Below the pieces are notes generated by a model. The model was not told the DNA's origin. It saw only the letters and a list, made by a program, of their open reading frames with translations, and did no database searches. From Variovorax paradoxus (GTDB taxonomy: Bacteria > Pseudomonadota > Gammaproteobacteria > Burkholderiales > Burkholderiaceae_C), in contig NZ_CP045644.1 in assembly GCF_009498455.1 (NCBI RefSeq), forward strand, positions 6,451,001-6,515,000: DNA of 64,000 nt, read 5' to 3'. A program made the translations under genes and the position numbers. Below, piece by piece: positions 14,235-57,133 of the stretch; position 1 is the stretch's first letter; each line of letters opens with the position of its first letter.

Positions 14235-15242
14235 TTATGGGCGCGCCGCCGGCCGCGCCCGCCGTGCCGAAGGCGACACCGCAGCAGTCGAGCCCACGTA
14301 GTGGTTGTACGAGCCGATGTCCGCCACGCAGCGCGCCATCAGGTCGACGAACGCGCGCAGCTTCTGCCCCATGTAGCGCTGCCGCTGGTAGGCGCAGTAC
14401 AGCCGCCGCGCCTCCGGCGGCCACTGCGGCAGCACCGGCACCAGCACGCCCTGCGCCACTTCGGGGCCCGCAAAGAACACCGGCAGCGGCGCAATGCCCA
14501 GGCCGTCGATGCAGAAGGTCTTCATCACCCAGTGGTCGTTGGTCTCGAAGGCCGGCTCCGTGCGCACCACATGGCGGCCCGAGGCCTGCTGCGACACCAG
14601 CCGCAGCGGCGACGGTGGCCCCGACGGCTCGCGCATCGCGATCATCCGGTGCTGCGCCAGCGCCTCGGGCGTCTGCGGCGTGCCGTGCCGCGCCAGGTAC
14701 TGCGGGCTCGCGTACAGACCGTAGGCCAGCCGGCCCAGCAGCTTGGCGACCAGGTCCGGCAAATCGGGTGGCGCCGAGCCGACATAGCAATCGACCTCGC
14801 CGATCTGCGGGGCCTGCACCCCGTTCGCCACGTCGAGCTGGCAGCGCACGTTCGGGTGCGATTCGAGAAAGATCCGCACCACATGGCAGACGAAGGAGGT
14901 GCTGAACTGCGTGTCGGACAGCAGCGTGAGCCGCCCCGACACCCCGCCCGTGAGCTCCTGCACCTCGGTGCGCGCCGTTTCCAGCCGGCCGCTCACCTCC
15001 CCGAGCAGCCCCTCGCAACGTGCGAAGAACGCACGCCCGGCCTCCGTCGGCGCGATGCGGCGCGAGCTGCGCAGCAGCAGCTGGGCGCCCAGCAGTTCCT
15101 CCAGCCGTGTGAGCTGGCGGCTCAGCGTCGCCTTCGACACGCCCGACAGGCTCTCGGCCTTGGTGAGGCTGCCGCTCTTCATCACGAGCACGAAGGCCTC
15201 GACCAGCGCGAGGTCGATGCGCCCGGCGCTCATGAATGCCAC
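14235..15242 (-). CDS. LysR-family transcriptional regulator
   Basis: A 335-residue LTTR. The N-terminal winged helix is evident ([40 protein letters not shown]), followed by the usual effector-binding domain. The last 20 residues are basic and Ala/Pro-rich. A second in-frame ATG three codons in is an equally possible start. It is divergent from the split Rieske oxygenase locus starting at 15406, so it is the natural candidate regulator of that locus. Confidence 0.9.
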
Positions 15243-15405: not shown

Positions 15406-16089
15406 ATGAATCCTTCCGCCGTATCACAGGCCTGGCACCCCGTCGCTCCCTCCGCCGAGGTGCGCGCCGGCGCCAACATCGTCGCCGGCTTTGCGCAAGG
15501 CCAGGAGCTCGCGCTGTGGCGCGCGGCCGATGGCTCACCCCAGGCCTGGGAGAACCGCTGCCCGCACCGCAGCGTGCGCTTCACGCTCGGCCAGGTGACC
15601 GGCGGCGACCGCCTGGCCTGCGCGTACCACGGCTGGCAGTACGAGGCCGGCAGCGGCGCGTGCGTGCGCATCCCGGCACACCCGGCCATGCAGGCGCCGC
15701 GCAATGTCTGCGCCAAGGTGTTCGCCACGGCGGATGCCGCGGGCATGCTGTGGGTGCGCCTTGCAGCCGATGGCCCGCCGGCGCCGGCTGAACTGGCCGA
15801 TGTCGTTCCCGCCGACTGGCACCTCGCCCGCACGCTGACGCTGCGCGTGGCCGCGTCCGAGGTGCGCGATGCGCTGGCGCAGCACGGCTTCACATCGGCA
15901 GCAACGCCCGATGCATGGCAAGGCACGCTGGGCGAATCGCCCGTCGCCGCGCTGCTGCTCGACGCCCAGCCGCAGTTGAGCTTCCTGCACCTGTGGACCG
16001 ACGCAGCCCCCGGCTCCGACGCAATGGCCCGGGTGCACCTCGCAGCGCGCCAGCTGCGCAGCGCCATCGAAGCCGCGTCATCGCACTGA
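15406..16089 (+). CDS. Stand-alone Rieske [2Fe-2S] protein of a split oxygenase
   Basis: A 227-residue protein. Residues 8-110 are a Rieske domain with C52-P-H54 and C72-A-Y-H75 followed by GW, as in aromatic-ring oxygenase alpha subunits. The remaining 115 residues lack the oxygenase mononuclear iron motif; they could be a degenerate SRPBCC remnant (QPQLSFLHLWTD), but this is a guess. The next gene encodes an oxygenase catalytic domain with no Rieske domain, so this protein probably supplies the missing cluster. No reductase gene is adjacent. Confidence 0.85.
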   Translation: MNPSAVSQAWHPVAPSAEVRAGANIVAGFAQGQELALWRAADGSPQAWENRCPHRSVRFTLGQVTGGDRLACAYHGWQYEAGSGACVRIPAHPAMQAPRNVCAKVFATADAAGMLWVRLAADGPPAPAELADVVPADWHLARTLTLRVAASEVRDALAQHGFTSAATPDAWQGTLGESPVAALLLDAQPQLSFLHLWTDAAPGSDAMARVHLAARQLRSAIEAASSH

Positions 16090-16107
16090 AAAGAAGAAAG
16101 AAAAAAC

Positions 16108-16953
16108 ATGCCCTTCGTCACCGACGATCCCAACATGCTCGACGACTGGCTCGTCGTCGGCCCCGCCGGCGGCTTGCCCCGCACGACACGGCTGCTCGGC
16201 GAAACCCTGCACCTGCACGCCGATGCCGACGGCACGCCACACGCCCTTCTCGGCAACGACGCGCTGACCGTTCAATCGCGCTACGGCTTCCTCTGGGTCT
16301 GTCCCAGCGGCCGCCCCGCACGGCCGCTGTTCGCCTTCCCCGAGCACGAAGAGCCCGGTCGCCGCCTCGTCGATTGCGGCGGACTCGGCGTGGCCGTGTC
16401 GGGCCTGCGCGTGATCGAGAACTTCCTGGACATGGCGCACTTTCCCTTCGTGCACCCCGACTACCTCGGCAAGGTGCCGCACACCGAAGTCGCCAAGTAC
16501 AACGTCGAGGTCGATGCCGCCACCGACGAGATCTGGGCCACCGACTGCCGCTTCTGGCAGCCGCGCGCCTCGGCCGCCCACGACACGGGCAGCGAGGTGT
16601 TCTACAAGTACCGCGTGATGCAGCCCTTCTCGGCCATGCTCTACAAGTCGAGCCACCGGCCCGACAAGCTCGACGCCATCGGCCTGTTCCTGCAGCCCGT
16701 GGACGACGAGCACGTCATCGCCCACACGCTGCTCGCCTATTTCGACGACGTGTCGACCGACGCCGAGCTCATCGCGTTCCAGCACACGATCTTCGGGCAG
16801 GACAAGCCCATTCTGGAGAACCACGCCTTCAAGCGCATGCCGCTCGAAGGCCGCGCCGAAACGCCCACGCGCGGCGACACCACCTCCGTCACTTACCGCC
16901 GCTGGCTGCGCGAGCGCGGCATGCGCTTCGGCACCGCGAGGGCCGCCGCGTGA
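16108..16953 (+). CDS. Rieske-type oxygenase catalytic subunit lacking the Rieske domain
   Basis: A 281-residue protein with the mononuclear iron site of Rieske oxygenases: ENFLDMAHFPFVHPDYLG, with N105, D108, H111 and H116, and a later FGQDKPILENH block that would give the third, acidic ligand. Typical alpha subunits are 330-450 residues and carry CxH...CxxH; no such pair is present here. This matches the description of NdmC, the caffeine-pathway N7-demethylase that borrows its Rieske centre from a partner. It lies 18 nt after the Rieske gene and overlaps the GST gene (GTGA). The substrate is unknown. Confidence 0.85.
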   Translation: MPFVTDDPNMLDDWLVVGPAGGLPRTTRLLGETLHLHADADGTPHALLGNDALTVQSRYGFLWVCPSGRPARPLFAFPEHEEPGRRLVDCGGLGVAVSGLRVIENFLDMAHFPFVHPDYLGKVPHTEVAKYNVEVDAATDEIWATDCRFWQPRASAAHDTGSEVFYKYRVMQPFSAMLYKSSHRPDKLDAIGLFLQPVDDEHVIAHTLLAYFDDVSTDAELIAFQHTIFGQDKPILENHAFKRMPLEGRAETPTRGDTTSVTYRRWLRERGMRFGTARAAA

Positions 16954-17597
16954 CCATCAAGCTCTACGACTACCCGCTTTCAGGCAACTGCTTCAAGGTG
17001 CGCCAGATGCTGCTGTGGCTCGGCGTGGACCACGCGAGCGTGCCGGTCGACTTCCATCCCGGTCGCGAGCACAGGTCCGCAAGATTTCTCGAGCAGATCA
17101 ACCCGCTCGGCCAGCTCCCGGTGATCGACGACGAAGGCTTCGTTCTGCGCGATGCACAAGCCATCCTGGTTTACCTCGCGAGCCGCTACGACGCATCGCA
17201 GCGCTGGTACCCCGCCGACCCGAAGCTGCGCGGCCAGGTCGCGATGTGGCTCGCCATGGCCGACGAGATCACGCGCACCGCCTCGGCCGCCCGGCTGCAC
17301 GACGCGCTGGGCTACACGCACCTGGACATCGACGCCTGCCGGCGGGGCGCGCGCGCGGCCTTCCGCGTGCTCGACGACCACCTCGCCGAGCAGCATGCCG
17401 CCACCGGCCTGCGCTGGCTCGCCGCCGCGCCCGAGCCGACCATTGCCGACCTCGCCTGCTTTCCGTACGTGGCGCTGGCGGGCGAAGGCGGCCTCTCGCT
17501 CGACGAGTTTCCCGCGCTGCGCCGCTGGGTCTGGGATTTCCGTCACCTGCCCGGTTTTGTGGGCATGTCGGGTATCTTCCCCGCTGGCCCCGCCTGA
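16950..17597 (+). CDS. Glutathione S-transferase-like protein, possible oxygenase partner
   Basis: A 215-residue GST fold: thioredoxin-like N-domain (KLYDYPLSGNCFKVRQML, NPLGQLPVIDDEGFVLRDAQAILVYLA) and an all-helical C-domain ending WVWDFRHLPGFVGMSGIF. The GTG start overlaps the oxygenase stop, so the two are translationally coupled. In the caffeine pathway NdmE is a GST-like protein needed for the NdmC/D/E complex, and this gene occupies the equivalent position. An ordinary detoxifying GST remains possible. Confidence 0.88.
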   Translation: MTIKLYDYPLSGNCFKVRQMLLWLGVDHASVPVDFHPGREHRSARFLEQINPLGQLPVIDDEGFVLRDAQAILVYLASRYDASQRWYPADPKLRGQVAMWLAMADEITRTASAARLHDALGYTHLDIDACRRGARAAFRVLDDHLAEQHAATGLRWLAAAPEPTIADLACFPYVALAGEGGLSLDEFPALRRWVWDFRHLPGFVGMSGIFPAGPA

Positions 17598-17649: not shown

Positions 17650-18756
<1,107 letters not shown>

Positions 18757-18775: not shown

Positions 18776-19708
18776 ATGAACCGCATGGAACCCTTGCGCA
18801 CCATTGAAGCGGGCGTCCTCGAAGTCGCCTATTACGAAACCGGCCCCGCCGACGGCCCGCCCGTGCTGCTGATGCATGGCTTTCCGTACGACATCCACAC
18901 GTACGCAGAGGTCGCGCCGATGCTGGCCGCGCAAGGCTGCCGCGTCGTCGTGCCGTACATGCGCGGCTACGGCGGCACGCGCTTCCTGAGCGACGCCACG
19001 CCGCGCTCGGGCGAACAGGCGGCGTTCGGCGCCGACCTGCTCGCGCTGCTCGATGCGCTGAAGATCGAGCGCGCCGTGCTCGCCGGCTACGACTGGGGCG
19101 GTCGCGCCGCCTGCGTGGTCGCAGCGCTGTGGCCCGAGCGCTGCGCAGGGCTGGTCTCGCTCAACAGCTACAACATCCAGAACATTGCGAAGGCGATGGA
19201 GCCGGACACCGCCGAGAACGAGCACAGCCTCTGGTACCAGTACTACTTTCACAGCGAACGCGGCCGCGCCGGCCTTGCGAAGGACCGCAACGCGATCGCG
19301 AAACTGCTCTGGCAGCTGTGGTCGCCGACGTGGCAATTCGACGACGCCACCTTCGCGCGCAGTGCCGCCGCCTTCGACCACCCCGACTTCGTCGACGTGG
19401 TGATCCATTCGTACCGCCACCGCTTCGGCCTCGTGCCCGGCGACCCGGCCTATGCGGACATCGAGCGCCGCCTCGCCGCACAGCCGACGATCACCGTGCC
19501 CGCCATCACCTTCGACGGCATCGACGACGGCGTGCGACCGCCCGCCGATGCCTCGGCCCATGCGCACCGCTTCAGCGGGCCGCGTTCGCACCGCCTCGTG
19601 CCCGGCGCGGGCCACAACCTGCCGCAGGAAGCACCCCGCACCTTCGCCGATGCCGTGCTTGAACTCGTGCCCGCACTGATGCGCAGCCAGACGACCTCTT
19701 CTTCATGA
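18776..19708 (+). CDS. Alpha/beta hydrolase with Asp nucleophile (epoxide hydrolase-like)
   Basis: A 310-residue alpha/beta hydrolase. The oxyanion motif HGFP is at 34-37 and the nucleophile elbow GYDWGG has Asp106 rather than Ser, as in epoxide hydrolases and haloalkane dehalogenases. The catalytic His is in GAGHNLPQEAP. A large helical cap lies between (about 125-220). It sits 19 nt after frmA and overlaps the frmB start (ATGA), so it is embedded in the formaldehyde operon. Its substrate there is not obvious. The SD is GAGGAGG. Confidence 0.85.
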   Translation: MNRMEPLRTIEAGVLEVAYYETGPADGPPVLLMHGFPYDIHTYAEVAPMLAAQGCRVVVPYMRGYGGTRFLSDATPRSGEQAAFGADLLALLDALKIERAVLAGYDWGGRAACVVAALWPERCAGLVSLNSYNIQNIAKAMEPDTAENEHSLWYQYYFHSERGRAGLAKDRNAIAKLLWQLWSPTWQFDDATFARSAAAFDHPDFVDVVIHSYRHRFGLVPGDPAYADIERRLAAQPTITVPAITFDGIDDGVRPPADASAHAHRFSGPRSHRLVPGAGHNLPQEAPRTFADAVLELVPALMRSQTTSSS

Positions 19709-20589
19709 CCGACACCACCCCGACACTCCTTTCCGAACACCACGCCTTCGGCGGCGTGCAGCGCTTCTTCGAGCACCGCTCGCACGAAATCGGCCTGCCG
19801 ATGCGCTTCTCGGTCTACCTGCCGCCGCAGGCCTTGACTGCCGGCAAGCCCGTGCCCGCCCTGCTCTACCTCGCGGGCCTGACCTGCAACGAGGAAACCT
19901 TCGCGGTGAAGGCCGGCGCGCAACGCATGGCCGCGAGCCTGGGCCTGGCGCTCGTCGCACCCGACACCAGCCCGCGCGGCGCCGGGCCCGAAGGCCTGCC
20001 GGGCGCGAAAGACAGCTGGGACTTCGGCATCGGCGCCGGCTTCTATCTCGACGCCACCGCCGAGCCATGGGCCACGCACTGGCGCATGGAAAGCTGGATC
20101 GTCCACGAGCTGCTGCCGCTCGTGACCCAACACCTGCCCATCGACGGCCAGCGCCTGGGCATCTTCGGCCACTCGATGGGCGGCCACGGCGCGCTCACGC
20201 TGGCGCTGCGGCACCCGGGGCGCTTCCTGTCGCTCTCGGCCTTCGCACCGATCTGCGCGCCCACCCAGTGCCCGTGGGGCCAGAAGGCCTTCGCCGGCTA
20301 CCTGGGCGAGCCCAGCGACGACCGCGCGCAGTGGCTCGCGCACGACGCCAGCGCGCTGATGCAGTCGCAGACCGTGGCGCCCTATCCGCAGGGCGTCCTC
20401 ATCGACCAGGGCCTGGCCGACAAATTCCTCGCCGAGCAGCTGCACCCCGAAGTCTTCGAGGCCGCCTGCTTCGCCGCCGGCCAACCGCTCACGCTGCGCC
20501 GCCATGCGGGCTACGACCACGGCTACTACTTCATCCAGAGCTTCATGGCCGACCACATCGCGCACCACGCGCAGACGCTGAACGGCTGA
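19705..20589 (+). CDS. frmB: S-formylglutathione hydrolase
   Basis: A 294-residue esterase-D-type serine hydrolase that splits S-formylglutathione into formate and glutathione, completing formaldehyde oxidation. The nucleophile elbow is GHSMGGHGAL, the acid lies in IDQGLADKF, and the His in GYDHGYYF. The family block YLAGLTCNEETFAVKAGAQR is present. Its start overlaps the stop of the epoxide-hydrolase-like gene. Confidence 0.96.
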   Translation: MTDTTPTLLSEHHAFGGVQRFFEHRSHEIGLPMRFSVYLPPQALTAGKPVPALLYLAGLTCNEETFAVKAGAQRMAASLGLALVAPDTSPRGAGPEGLPGAKDSWDFGIGAGFYLDATAEPWATHWRMESWIVHELLPLVTQHLPIDGQRLGIFGHSMGGHGALTLALRHPGRFLSLSAFAPICAPTQCPWGQKAFAGYLGEPSDDRAQWLAHDASALMQSQTVAPYPQGVLIDQGLADKFLAEQLHPEVFEAACFAAGQPLTLRRHAGYDHGYYFIQSFMADHIAHHAQTLNG

Positions 20590-31584: not shown

Positions 31585-32546
31585 GCGGCGACTCCGACAT
31601 GCTGGCGCTGGTCGTGGACGCGGTCACGCCGCTCACGCCGACCATCAAGGCCTTCGTGCTGCGTTCGGCCAACGGCGAGCCCCTGCCGCCGTTCGCGCCG
31701 GGCGCGCACCTGGGCGTGCAGGTGGTGCAGACCAACGGCCACGCGGGGCAGCGCGCCTACTCGCTCGCCAAGCCGCACGACGGCTCGGACCGCTGCGAGA
31801 TCGCGGTGCTGTGCGAGCCCCAAGGCGCAGGCGGTTCGACCTGGATGCACGCGCTGCAACCCGGCGCCGCGCTGGCCGCGCACGCGCCGCGCAACGACTT
31901 CGCGCTGCACGCGGGCAACACGCCGCCGCTGCTCCTTGCGGGCGGCATCGGCATCACGCCGCTGCTGTGCATGGCGCGCTCGCTGGCGGCCGACGATCGC
32001 CCCTTCGAATTCGTCTATGCCACGCGCAGCGAGGACGCCACGGCCTACCTGCACGAGGTGCGCGCGCTCGGTGGCACGGTGGTGCACGACGGCGGCGACC
32101 CCGCGCGCGGCCTCGATCTGCGTGCCCTGCTGGCCGCGCCCGTGCCCGGCCGCCATCTGCACGTGTGCGGTCCGCGCGGCATGGTGCAGGCCGTGGTCGA
32201 CACCGCCCGCGCGCTCGGCTGGCCCGACGACCACGTGCACTTCGAACTCTTCGCCGGTGCCATCGAACAGGCGGGCGATGCGCCCTTCGAGGTGCGCACG
32301 CTGCGCTCGGGCAAGACACTCACCGTGCTGCCCGACCAGAGCCTGCTCGACGTGCTCATCGCCGCGGGCCTGGACCCGCTGTACGACTGCCGCCAGGGCG
32401 ACTGCGGCGTGTGCGTGGTCGACGTGGTCGAGGGCGTGCCCGACCACCGCGACCACAACCTCAGTCCGCGCGAGAAGGCGGACGGCAAGACCCTGTGCAC
32501 CTGCGTGTCGCGCGCGAAGACGCCGCTCCTGGTGCTCGACATCTGA
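31581..32546 (+). CDS. Phthalate-dioxygenase-type reductase (FMN, NAD, [2Fe-2S])
   Basis: A 321-residue electron-transfer protein. The N-terminal flavin domain contains RAYSLAKPHD; the NAD domain has LLAGGIGITPLLCMARSL and HVCGPRGMVQAV; the C-terminal plant-type ferredoxin has CRQGDCGVCVVDVV plus a later CTCVSRA. This order (FMN-NAD-2Fe2S) is that of PDR and VanB. It passes electrons from NADH to the Rieske oxygenase encoded next. ATGA overlap with the upstream gene. Confidence 0.93.
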   Translation: MSGDSDMLALVVDAVTPLTPTIKAFVLRSANGEPLPPFAPGAHLGVQVVQTNGHAGQRAYSLAKPHDGSDRCEIAVLCEPQGAGGSTWMHALQPGAALAAHAPRNDFALHAGNTPPLLLAGGIGITPLLCMARSLAADDRPFEFVYATRSEDATAYLHEVRALGGTVVHDGGDPARGLDLRALLAAPVPGRHLHVCGPRGMVQAVVDTARALGWPDDHVHFELFAGAIEQAGDAPFEVRTLRSGKTLTVLPDQSLLDVLIAAGLDPLYDCRQGDCGVCVVDVVEGVPDHRDHNLSPREKADGKTLCTCVSRAKTPLLVLDI

Positions 32547-32570
32547 TGACGTTTCAGGAGACCCCACCCG

Positions 32571-33938
32571 ATGAATTCCGTGATCCCCATCATCCCCATC
32601 GCGGCGACAGACCCGATCGACATCCAGTCGCTCGTGCAGCCCGACCGCGTGCACAAGCGCGTCTACACCGACCCCGCCATCTTCGAGCTGGAGATGGACC
32701 GCGTGTTCGGCCAGGCCTGGATCTACATCGGCCACGAAAGCCAGGTGCCCAAGCCCGGCGACTACTTCACCACGCGCCTGGGCCGCGAGCCCGTGGTGAT
32801 GGTGCGGCACACCGACGGCCAGGTGCATGTGATGTTCAATCGCTGCCCGCACAAGGGCGCCAAGCTCGTGCCCGACGGCAGCGGCAGCGCCGGCAAGTTC
32901 CTGCGCTGCCTGTACCACGGCTGGACCTTCAAGTGCGACGGCAGCCTGCTGTCGGTGCCGCTGCGCAGCGGCTACGAATGCACCGCGCTCGACCTGAAAG
33001 ACCCGCAGTACGGCGTGCGCAAGGTGGCGCGCGTGGCCACGCACCGCGGCTTCGTGTTCGCCAGCCTGTCGGAAGACGGGCCGGAGTTGAAAGAATTTCT
33101 GGGCGGCGTGGCCACGTCGCTCGACAACTTCTGCGACCGCGCGCCCGAGGGCGAAGTGGAAGTGGCGGGCGGCGTGCAGCGCGTGGTCCAGCGCAACAAC
33201 TGGAAGATCTTCTTCGAGAACCTGCACGACACCATCCACGCCGTGGCCACGCACGAGTCGTCGTGGCGTGCGGCCAAGGAAGAGCACGAATCGATGCCCG
33301 CCGGCACGCCCAAGCCCTTCGAGGTGGTGATCGTCGACGGCAACGGCGAACCGCTGGAGTTCTGGGAGAAGCTGGAGCTCAAGGGCTACGACCACGGCCA
33401 CGGTTTCATGGAAGGCATCTTCGTGCCGCCGACCGACCCGGTGAGCCTGGCCTACGTGGCCTCGCTCGAAGCTGCGAAGGGTGCCGAGCGTGCCGACGAG
33501 ATCCTGCGCGTGAACCGGCACAACACCATCGTGTACCCGAGCTGCTCGCCGCACACCTCGTTCCAGCAGATTCGCGTGATCCGGCCGCTGTCGGTGGACC
33601 GCACGCTGGTCGAGATCTTCAGCTTCCGGCTCAAGGGCGCGCCCGAGGCCACCTTCCAGCGCACGCTCAAGTACACCAACATCGTCAACGCGCCCTCGTC
33701 GAACGTGATGTCCGACGACCTGGAGGCCTACAACCGCGTGCAGGAAGGCCTGGGCTCCGACGGCGGCGACTGGGTCAGCATGCACCGCGCGGCCGGGCGC
33801 GACCAGCCGCTGCCGGGCGGGCGCGCATCCAACGGCAACAGCGAGATGCCCTCGCGCAACATGTTCGCGGCGTGGGCCGGGTACATGGGTGTCGACACGG
33901 GTGTCGAGACGAACGAACAGACCGGGAGCGCCGAATGA
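32571..33938 (+). CDS. Rieske ring-hydroxylating oxygenase, alpha subunit
   Basis: A 455-residue catalytic subunit. The Rieske centre is C92-P-H94 and C113-L-Y-H116-GW; the mononuclear iron site is in WKIFFENLHDTIHAVATHE. SD CAGGAG precedes the ATG. A beta subunit gene follows with ATGA overlap, so this is an alpha/beta heteromeric oxygenase fed by the upstream reductase without a separate ferredoxin. The substrate is not evident; a carboxylated or sulfonated aromatic is plausible by analogy. Confidence 0.93.
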   Translation: MNSVIPIIPIAATDPIDIQSLVQPDRVHKRVYTDPAIFELEMDRVFGQAWIYIGHESQVPKPGDYFTTRLGREPVVMVRHTDGQVHVMFNRCPHKGAKLVPDGSGSAGKFLRCLYHGWTFKCDGSLLSVPLRSGYECTALDLKDPQYGVRKVARVATHRGFVFASLSEDGPELKEFLGGVATSLDNFCDRAPEGEVEVAGGVQRVVQRNNWKIFFENLHDTIHAVATHESSWRAAKEEHESMPAGTPKPFEVVIVDGNGEPLEFWEKLELKGYDHGHGFMEGIFVPPTDPVSLAYVASLEAAKGAERADEILRVNRHNTIVYPSCSPHTSFQQIRVIRPLSVDRTLVEIFSFRLKGAPEATFQRTLKYTNIVNAPSSNVMSDDLEAYNRVQEGLGSDGGDWVSMHRAAGRDQPLPGGRASNGNSEMPSRNMFAAWAGYMGVDTGVETNEQTGSAE

Positions 33939-55787: not shown

Positions 55788-57133
55788 GCCGCATCGCGGC
55801 AGGCCGCGTTCTGCGTTTCAATTTCGGCGTCCGACGCGCCGCCGTGCACCTTGAAGAACTGCGCGCCCTCGACCTTCTGCCCGATGGCCTTCTCATACGC
55901 CGCGCGCACATCGTCAGGCTGCCCGGCCTGCCCGAAGAAGTCCTTCAGGTACGGCCCCAGCAGCGGATGCGCAGCCAGTTCGGCGCGCGGCAGGCCATGC
56001 AGCATCTCCTCACGGCAGGCCGACGGCAGGCACACGTCGCGGTTCTTTTCGGGGTCGCGAATCAGCCCCTTGGGCTCGTGCGACGGATCGGCCTGCATTG
56101 ATTCGAGTTCTTCAAAAAAGCGCCGACGCATCATCACGATGCCCTTGTCGCTCTGGCCCAGCTTCTCGCGCGTGCGGTCGGTCACGGTGCCCTGCCCCAC
56201 CCACACCACGAAGTCCTGGTTGGCGACATGGCTGGTGATCCAGCGGCCCGTGACCGGGTCCTTGATGGGGCCGTACCACGAGGGAATGCGCTCCTGCACA
56301 TAGGGCTCCTGCTCGTTGGGCACGCGGCTGAGCACCCACAGCACGCTCAGCGTGTGGTGGTCGTCGATGGGCACGCGCCATTCGAAGTGATGGCCGAGGA
56401 AGAAGCCGTTGGGCCACAGCGTGACGCGGCCGGTGGTCCACATCACGTTGTCTTCGCGCTCGCCGCCACGCAGGCGCTTGTAGACGAAGCCGTGCTCGAA
56501 CTCCTCGAAGGCCAGCTTCAGGTGCGTGGGCACGTAGGGGCCTTCGTCGCCCTGCAGCCGCGTGGTCCAGTTGTTGTGCGTCCACTCGAAGTGCACGGGG
56601 TCGATGGAGTTCTCCTGGCACTGGAACCAGTTGCAGGGAATCTCGGCGAACACGGCCTGCGCGAAACCGTTCCTGCAGTTGAAGAGTTCCCAGTCGGGCA
56701 AGAGCGGCGCGGGCTGCGGGCCCATGTAGGCCCACAGCAGGCCGGCCTTTTCCTGCACGGGGTAGGCCTTGATCTTCGTGTTCTTGCGCATGCGCGCGTC
56801 GGGGTCCAGCGTTTCTTCAAAGGGCTGGTGGATGCACTGGCCGCTCGTGTCGTACTGCCAGCCGTGGTAGCTGCAGCGCAGGCCGCACTTCTCCACGTAG
56901 CCGTACGACATGTCGGCGTTGCGGTGCGGGCAGCGGCGGTCGACCAGGCCGTAGTTGCCGCTCAGGTCCTTGTAGAGCACCAGGTCCTCGCCGAGGATGC
57001 GCAGCGGCTTCACGGCCTTGTCGTCGAACTCGCTGGCACCGGCAATCGGGTGCCAGTAGCGGCGCAGGTAGTCGCCCATGGGCTTGCCCGGACCGACTTC
57101 GGTCAGCACGCGGTTCTTTTCTTCGCTCAACAT
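55784..57133 (-). CDS. Rieske oxygenase alpha subunit (phthalate dioxygenase-like)
   Basis: A 449-residue oxygenase. The Rieske site is C68-P-H70 and C87-S-Y-H90-GW; the mononuclear iron site is ENSIDPVHFEWTHNNW (D-x2-H-x4-H). The single-subunit architecture with LRRYWHPIAGASEF at the N-terminus fits the phthalate-dioxygenase/VanA group. No reductase gene is adjacent. It lies 25 nt downstream of a Bug receptor gene on the same strand, so uptake and oxidation of one compound are probably paired. Confidence 0.93.
   Translation of the reverse strand: MLSEEKNRVLTEVGPGKPMGDYLRRYWHPIAGASEFDDKAVKPLRILGEDLVLYKDLSGNYGLVDRRCPHRNADMSYGYVEKCGLRCSYHGWQYDTSGQCIHQPFEETLDPDARMRKNTKIKAYPVQEKAGLLWAYMGPQPAPLLPDWELFNCRNGFAQAVFAEIPCNWFQCQENSIDPVHFEWTHNNWTTRLQGDEGPYVPTHLKLAFEEFEHGFVYKRLRGGEREDNVMWTTGRVTLWPNGFFLGHHFEWRVPIDDHHTLSVLWVLSRVPNEQEPYVQERIPSWYGPIKDPVTGRWITSHVANQDFVVWVGQGTVTDRTREKLGQSDKGIVMMRRRFFEELESMQADPSHEPKGLIRDPEKNRDVCLPSACREEMLHGLPRAELAAHPLLGPYLKDFFGQAGQPDDVRAAYEKAIGQKVEGAQFFKVHGGASDAEIETQNAACRDAA

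Follow-up and report, generated by a model that had tools for sequence, protein, structure and literature searches.

We analysed a stretch of 64,000 nucleotides from Variovorax paradoxus (hereafter the window; C1:6451001-6515000 of a one-contig genome of 7.29 Mb), and find that three consecutive genes in it probably encode an NdmCDE-type Rieske N-demethylase built from two subunits. In such an enzyme, electrons from NADH would reach the iron of P2 by way of P1, the substrate would be an N-methylated purine, and the formaldehyde formed would be passed on to FrmA and FghA. The trio comprises a Rieske protein of 227 residues, recognised by its PF00355 match and cluster ligands (P1, 15406-16089, + strand), an NdmC-like oxygenase of 281 residues with a VanA_C domain (P2, 16108-16953, +), and an NdmE-like glutathione S-transferase (GST) partner of 215 residues with GST_N domains (P3, 16950-17597, +). 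The GTG start codon of P3 lies inside the end of P2, giving a 4-nt overlap with the P2 stop. An initial annotation of this DNA had described a split Rieske oxygenase with an overlapping GST-like gene, resembling NdmC, NdmD and NdmE, and both the overlap and the resemblance are borne out by the comparisons below.

Residues 10-95 of P1 match the Rieske domain PF00355 (70.9 bits against a cut-off of 20.3), and the cluster ligands C52, H54, C72 and H75 are invariant in the 48 aligned homologues. The rows of this alignment were chosen from matches carrying the Rieske motif, and a Rieske protein from Komagataeibacter that lacks the full motif was omitted, so the invariance is not independent evidence. 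The N-x2-D-x2-H-x4-H iron motif is found in none of the 48 rows. The initial annotation had named the same four ligands but took the gene to encode a Rieske domain alone, and this second part does not hold: in the predicted structure, P1 forms a second folded domain from around residue 130, and this domain aligns structurally with the catalytic domain of Rieske oxygenases. It is a small helix-grip domain (about residues 139-225) that lacks iron ligands. The predicted model (pLDDT 95) fits solved Rieske oxygenases across 219 of the 227 residues, and the ferredoxin 2qpz covers only 102 P1 residues in the structure comparison. The second domain sets P1 apart from stand-alone Rieske ferredoxins, which consist of a single Rieske domain of about 100 residues. 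Judged from the model, P1 looks like a degenerate alpha subunit similar to the N-terminal part of NdmD. The database label given by the submitters to a close relative (P0131) is ‘Methylxanthine N1-demethylase NdmA’.

Two relatives of P1 have unusual features. The small Rieske protein of the first tandem split set on plasmid pKNA08 of Komagataeibacter nataicola (L113, 6811-7344) reads LEGVYHGW, with Val replacing the second cysteine ligand, and its cluster may therefore be lost or altered. In genome G422 (L157, 6104-7294, - strand), a P1-like Rieske protein is fused to an apparent plant-type ferredoxin domain alone, with no flavin domain, as read by eye from the sequence.

P2 matches VanA_C (PF19112) and no Rieske family in the Pfam search, and the C-x-H...C-x2-H Rieske motif occurs in none of its 51 aligned rows, so that the split proposed initially stands. 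The residues N105, D108, H111 and H116, already assigned to an oxygenase iron domain in the initial annotation, are invariant in all 51 homologues, as is D232. Because of its invariance, D232 is likely the third iron ligand, and the mononuclear iron site would then consist of H111, H116 and D232, plus N105 and a presumably bridging D108. The N-terminus of P2 is a vestigial Rieske-like domain without cluster ligands, and the protein fits solved Rieske oxygenases across 269 of 281 residues in the fold comparison. P2 is 46% identical to NdmC from Pseudomonas putida CBB5 (M1EY73) across 257 residues, and the two belong to one clade (support 100/100). A close relative (P0019) carries the submitters’ label ‘putative methylxanthine N7-demethylase NdmC’.

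In canonical alpha subunits both metal sites reside in one chain; here they are divided between P1 and P2. The hallmarks of Rieske oxygenases, namely the Rieske ligands, the 2-His-1-carboxylate site with a bridging Asp, and the Rieske plus helix-grip fold, are all present across the two chains. Each of the two proteins resembles a complete alpha-subunit fold in the structural models, and their losses appear reciprocal, with P1 keeping the [2Fe-2S] site and P2 the iron site. The original notion of a Rieske domain cut off from an oxygenase is abandoned accordingly.

P3 is the top match in the genome to the GST of an NdmC-D-E set from KF715 (51% identity; 218.7 bits, against 118.7 for the next protein), a reference that is NdmE-like and distinct from NdmE of CBB5. 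It scores below the NCBIfam cut-offs of named catalytic GSTs (maiA, 51.9 versus 171.05 bits; GstA, 23.9 versus 198). The cis-proline motif of the glutathione site is present in 85 of 89 partner GSTs, and the SGNC and RD[AS]QAI glutathione-site patterns in only 49 of them.

We surveyed 101 Variovorax genomes for the three proteins, with cut-offs of at least 230 bits for P2, E≤1e-40 for P1 and E≤1e-60 for the GST. P2 was found in 54 genomes, P1 in 50 and the GST in 53, and at these cut-offs neither P1 nor the GST occurred outside the 54. Left out of these counts are 26 of the 81 match rows, with E-values of about 1e-36 to 1e-43, which were judged to be whole oxygenases, without being opened individually, on the basis of 37-43% identity, a start no earlier than query residue 31, and likeness to a group of compact oxygenases (L130-L136, see below). 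Among the 55 P2 loci, P1 lies within 500 nt on the same strand in 50, the GST within 2 kb in 54, and the order P1-P2-GST is kept in 49; the genes of the triplet are thus usually adjacent, as the initial annotation required. The loci without P1 at the cut-off are those of G041, G053, G091 (its second locus), G094 and G096, and a more distant P1-like Rieske match adjoins P2 in the four of them that were looked at (L160-L163, which do not include G053). The sole P2-bearing genome without the GST, G066, has P2 at the start of a contig. The co-occurrence and order of P1, P2 and P3 are not due to chance.

For a wider comparison we used the best 80 loci of at least 557 relatives listed from a species-level genome collection, a biased sample since it is made of the closest relatives. 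A separate Rieske protein (trimmed open reading frames of 200-245 residues) is present at 69 of these loci, a fused NdmD at six, and no Rieske gene was found within the stretch compared at five; a GST match is present at 76. The separation of the Rieske protein from a reductase, suggested initially as a new arrangement, is confirmed, but it is common in this sample and no single oddity. Gene order is different in Rhizobiales, where the Rieske gene has the GST gene as its neighbour and the NdmC-like gene, in most cases, either is divergently oriented or lies at a distance of about 5 kb. In a phylum-wide sample, 23 of 398 genomes had a match (E≤1e-20), of which eight (131-146 bits, one at 91) resemble whole oxygenases.

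We propose that NADH would reduce a VanB-type flavin/2Fe-2S reductase encoded elsewhere in the genome, which would in turn reduce the cluster of P1. In Rieske oxygenases such as CntA, the cluster of one subunit is described as reducing the iron of the next via a bridging carboxylate, across a distance of 12.2 Å in CntA (excerpt of PMC7948474). P1 and P2 would be packed head to tail, like neighbouring subunits of normal Rieske oxygenases, so that electrons would pass from the P1 cluster via the bridging D108 to the iron of P2. With O2, P2 would hydroxylate the N-methyl group of the substrate, which would depart as formaldehyde and be handed to glutathione, and then to FrmA and FghA, while P3 would keep P1 and P2 together. 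As stated initially, P1 is separate from any reductase: the reading frame ends at 16089, the trio contains no reductase domain, and the window operon contains no reductase gene. Relatives with a VanB-type reductase inside the locus are L058, L062, L160-L163 and L167. A single VanB-type donor does not stand out in the V. paradoxus genome itself, where two of the nine stronger matches (C1:3664018 and C1:1755906) are not near a listed Rieske match.

The substrate, which the initial annotation left open, can be narrowed by the gene context of relatives to N-methylpurines as the probable class. At the best 80 loci, including the six with fused NdmD, we found genes for a BMP (PnrA-like) ABC transporter at 35, guanine-deaminase-type proteins at 21, TRZ/ATZ deaminases at 11 and 8-oxoguanine deaminases at nine. 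The loci with purine markers are mostly alphaproteobacterial and mutually related. Fused relatives adjoin a xanthine permease, HpxO or xanthine dehydrogenase. Because purine transporter, deaminase and xanthine genes occur at these loci, we expect an N-methylated guanine or xanthine as the substrate, and Variovorax may use the same. AtzB-type N2,N2-dimethylguanine hydrolases have recently been reported (excerpt of PMC13054789), and our full-text literature search yielded no paper joining 7-methylguanine, demethylation and a Rieske enzyme. Within Variovorax, three of 29 loci have any purine marker, in each case a BMP gene directly upstream of the trio (L041, L056 and L057). The likely formaldehyde sink is the product of frmA (S-(hydroxymethyl)glutathione dehydrogenase, 368 residues; 17650-18756, +; TIGR02818, 631.2 bits, cut-off 543.95), and the gene for the next enzyme, S-formylglutathione hydrolase, is fghA (19705-20589, +; TIGR02821, 410.8 bits, cut-off 281.7). 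Among same-strand pairs, frmA lies within 88 nt after the GST match in 33 of 34, in separate and fused systems, and the cluster of CBB5 is described as also holding frmA and frmB (excerpt of PMC4408171).

Several observations weigh against the proposed demethylase. No purine gene adjoins the window trio, the guanine deaminase of the genome and a BMP protein are located together 0.37 Mb away, and the functional hints beside the trio within the window are limited to frmA and fghA. Eleven candidate VanB-type reductases are encoded elsewhere in the genome, none of them clearly matched. In a mirror-tree test, the correlation of P1 with P2 (r 0.73) is the same as that of P1 with FghA (r 0.73), with a partial r of 0.40. 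Sequence alone gives weak evidence that the C-terminal domain of P1 descends from a catalytic domain: its hhalign score against NdmC was reached in none of 200 column shuffles and in three of 60 block shuffles, which keep a short motif, and that against the compact oxygenases in four of 200 column and three of 60 block shuffles. Finally, frmA belongs to the core of the genus (87 of 101 genomes) and occurs without the trio too, and aroQ and frmA are directly adjacent in five of nine trio-less loci compared. The linkage to frmA in the window is weak evidence for these reasons, and we have withdrawn it as strong independent evidence in Variovorax; the trio is thus a presence/absence module next to a core formaldehyde gene, a placement that is suggestive but falls short of proof.

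The same two-subunit enzyme and electron path might serve a non-purine substrate, such as an N- or O-methylated aromatic compound or amine from plants or soil, with formaldehyde still going to FrmA and FghA. The absence of any purine marker searched from 26 of the 29 Variovorax loci favours this explanation, as does the fact that, among solved structures of whole oxygenases, SxtT and SxtDIOX come closest to P2, and not NdmA or NdmB. A second rhizobial context without purine genes among those named points the same way, and so does the divergent LysR gene of the window, since LysR regulators are common in aromatic catabolism. Yet P2 is 46% identical to a 7-methylxanthine N7-demethylase, a BMP (PnrA-like) gene lies upstream in the three same-type Variovorax loci mentioned above and in four type-2 loci (L160-L163), and purine deaminases or permeases are found close to other relatives. 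On balance we consider a non-purine substrate somewhat unlikely. The second rhizobial context is seen in L082 and similar clusters (L083, L092, L093, L102 and L107), in which Rieske, GST and NdmC-like genes are accompanied by genes which on L082 are named as those of a 2-hydroxyacid dehydrogenase and a 3-hydroxyisobutyryl-CoA hydrolase.

P3 could be more than a scaffold if it bound glutathione beside the active site of P2 and trapped formaldehyde as it forms, giving S-hydroxymethylglutathione, on which FrmA acts. Formaldehyde capture would account for the need of a formaldehyde-producing oxygenase for a GST, and would fit both the retained cis-proline motif (85 of 89) and the closeness of frmA to the GST gene in separate and fused systems alike (33 of 34 pairs). 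We nevertheless doubt it. The other two glutathione-site patterns are conserved in only 49 of the 89 partner GSTs, frmA is core in Variovorax, and the 40 alphaproteobacterial loci contain one frmA match only, at 27% identity; moreover, NdmE is regarded as structural, with no known catalysis, in the excerpts of PMC4408171 and PMC8055839.

It is very improbable that P1 is a Rieske ferredoxin serving several oxygenases of the cell, with P2 only loosely among them. NdmD is described as supplying NdmA and NdmB as well (excerpt of PMC4408171), and the genome contains 27 Rieske matches. However, P1 is confined to P2-bearing genomes (50 of 50), its second domain is absent from Rieske ferredoxins, and P1-like proteins group with NdmD N-termini in a clade separate from 27 whole oxygenases, in a tree built without stand-alone ferredoxins. 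An orphan ferredoxin was rejected on the basis of the second domain and the strict co-occurrence with P2. That P1 and P2 are one oxygenase gene split by a stop, or a decaying functionless duplicate, is hardly credible despite their sharing a reading frame in the window with one TGA and 18 nt between them, because each protein carries its own copy of the shared parts (P2 an N-terminal Rieske-domain half, P1 a C-terminal domain) and the spacing between the two matches is variable, at 14-50 nt in 49 of the 50 Variovorax pairs (360 nt in the remaining pair, which has a partial P1 match), with both motif sets invariant across the aligned rows.

The phylogenetic trees bear on the history of the two-subunit demethylase. 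NdmC-like proteins form a single clade relative to the compact oxygenases (46 of 51 rows, 100/100), and the Rieske parts of P1-like proteins and NdmD relatives form another (41 of 48 rows, 100/97). Nested inside the latter is a clade of eight fused Rieske rows, including the ferredoxin fusion of L157 (100/96); the fused NdmC rows form a clade at 89/83 only, together with four database rows of unchecked layout. As the fused forms sit inside the separate ones in the best trees, the separate form may be the older of the two, with NdmD the outcome of a single fusion. We do not regard this ancestry as proven, since an alternative tree that unites the separate rows in one clade cannot be rejected (p-AU 0.136 for NdmC-like and 0.31 for Rieske proteins). 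A broader reading, which we consider possible and offer tentatively, is that split Rieske oxygenases, including NdmC and NdmD of CBB5, go back to an alpha subunit that was duplicated, each copy losing the metal site that the other kept, and not to a cut-off domain, and that their subunits are held together by the GST, which may pass formaldehyde to glutathione. The three-gene form would be the older and commoner one, NdmD would stem from a single later event that joined the Rieske protein to a VanB-type reductase, and in nature these enzymes would mainly serve to salvage methylated guanines and xanthines released in nucleic acid turnover, not to break down caffeine.

On the upstream side, the trio is flanked by a divergent LysR-type regulator gene (14235-15242, -) together with aroQ. 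The regulator is missing from the same position in several other Variovorax loci and is therefore not an obligatory part. Downstream, an alpha/beta hydrolase gene (18776-19708, +) sits between frmA and fghA. A promoter scan gave no promoter-like site, and a terminator scan one terminator-like site on the opposite strand, against a shuffle mean of 1.6. At the empty sites of trio-less Variovorax (L178, L180, L181, L182 and L185), the aroQ-frmA gap is about 65-160 bp, where the window holds the LysR gene and the trio. Variovorax loci L161, L162 and L163 (G041, G096 and G094) have a different trio (P2 about 46% identical) with a BMP protein and a reductase, directly ahead of a frmA that is 95% identical to that of the window. 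Elsewhere in the window (31617-33938, +) there is a second, ordinary Rieske oxygenase of 455 residues, which is benA/HcaE-like below cut-offs and has a VanB-type reductase just ahead. A further Rieske oxygenase domain (56810-57055, -) lies within an open reading frame of 449 residues, the sole NCBIfam match of which at E≤1e-20 is far under its cut-off.

Among whole oxygenases, the compact Rieske oxygenases of about 325 residues from Comamonadaceae (L130-L136) are the nearest to P1 (34-48% identity) and P2 (36-39%) of 27 compared, and differ in having both metal sites in a single chain. The one member checked has no NCBIfam match at E≤1e-20; the substrate of this group would bear on the ancestry of the split enzymes. 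In sequence as well as in fold, the best-matching solved structures for both P1 and P2 are SxtT and GxtA (SxtDIOX), which differ in being single-chain alpha subunits acting on saxitoxin-type substrates. The chlorophyllide a oxygenase of Micromonas, according to what Kunugi reportedly described in 2013, has its Rieske centre on one chain and its iron on the other, and we know of no GST partner for it. This enzyme, from Micromonas pusilla, is a Rieske oxygenase in two polypeptide chains too (excerpt of PMC9615114), but it is eukaryotic and acts on chlorophyll. Plasmid pKNA08 of K. nataicola, a kombucha isolate, carries genes for a separate Rieske protein, an NdmC-like protein, a GST and a VanB-type reductase, and differs from the window in having two tandem sets with NdmA-like oxygenases alongside.

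The closest known system is NdmCDE, the methylxanthine N7-demethylase of P. putida CBB5, a tight complex of three proteins that acts on 7-methylxanthine. The abstract of its founding paper of 2013 is said to state that split oxygenase and GST clusters occur more broadly. Like P2, NdmC lacks the Rieske cluster, which is supplied by another protein, and the relatives of that protein, NdmD, share a clade with P1; a GST partner and the formaldehyde genes frmA and frmB are nearby, as at the window locus (excerpt of PMC4408171). The window thus has an NdmC-clade oxygenase without a Rieske cluster and an NdmE-like GST gene, but not the Rieske-reductase fusion: the Rieske part of NdmD is joined to an FMN/2Fe-2S reductase, whereas P1 is a protein of 227 residues with no reductase in its operon. 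The excerpts of the literature on ndm genes do not describe an NdmC-type enzyme whose Rieske subunit is a separate protein, and according to a 2026 paper no structure of the NdmCDE complex had yet been solved (excerpt of PMC13237722). Being smaller, the separate subunits may prove more tractable. As the two redox centres of a Rieske oxygenase are naturally separated here, each could be mutated, titrated and timed singly, and inter-subunit electron transfer and the requirement for the GST therefore become directly testable. What seemed a speciality of caffeine degradation would become an enzyme design of wide occurrence, and rhizobia and Variovorax are predicted to have a pathway for methylated purines in soil. 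We regard NdmCDE as the parent type of the window system, and the structural reinterpretation of this type as the product of reciprocal loss may be new.
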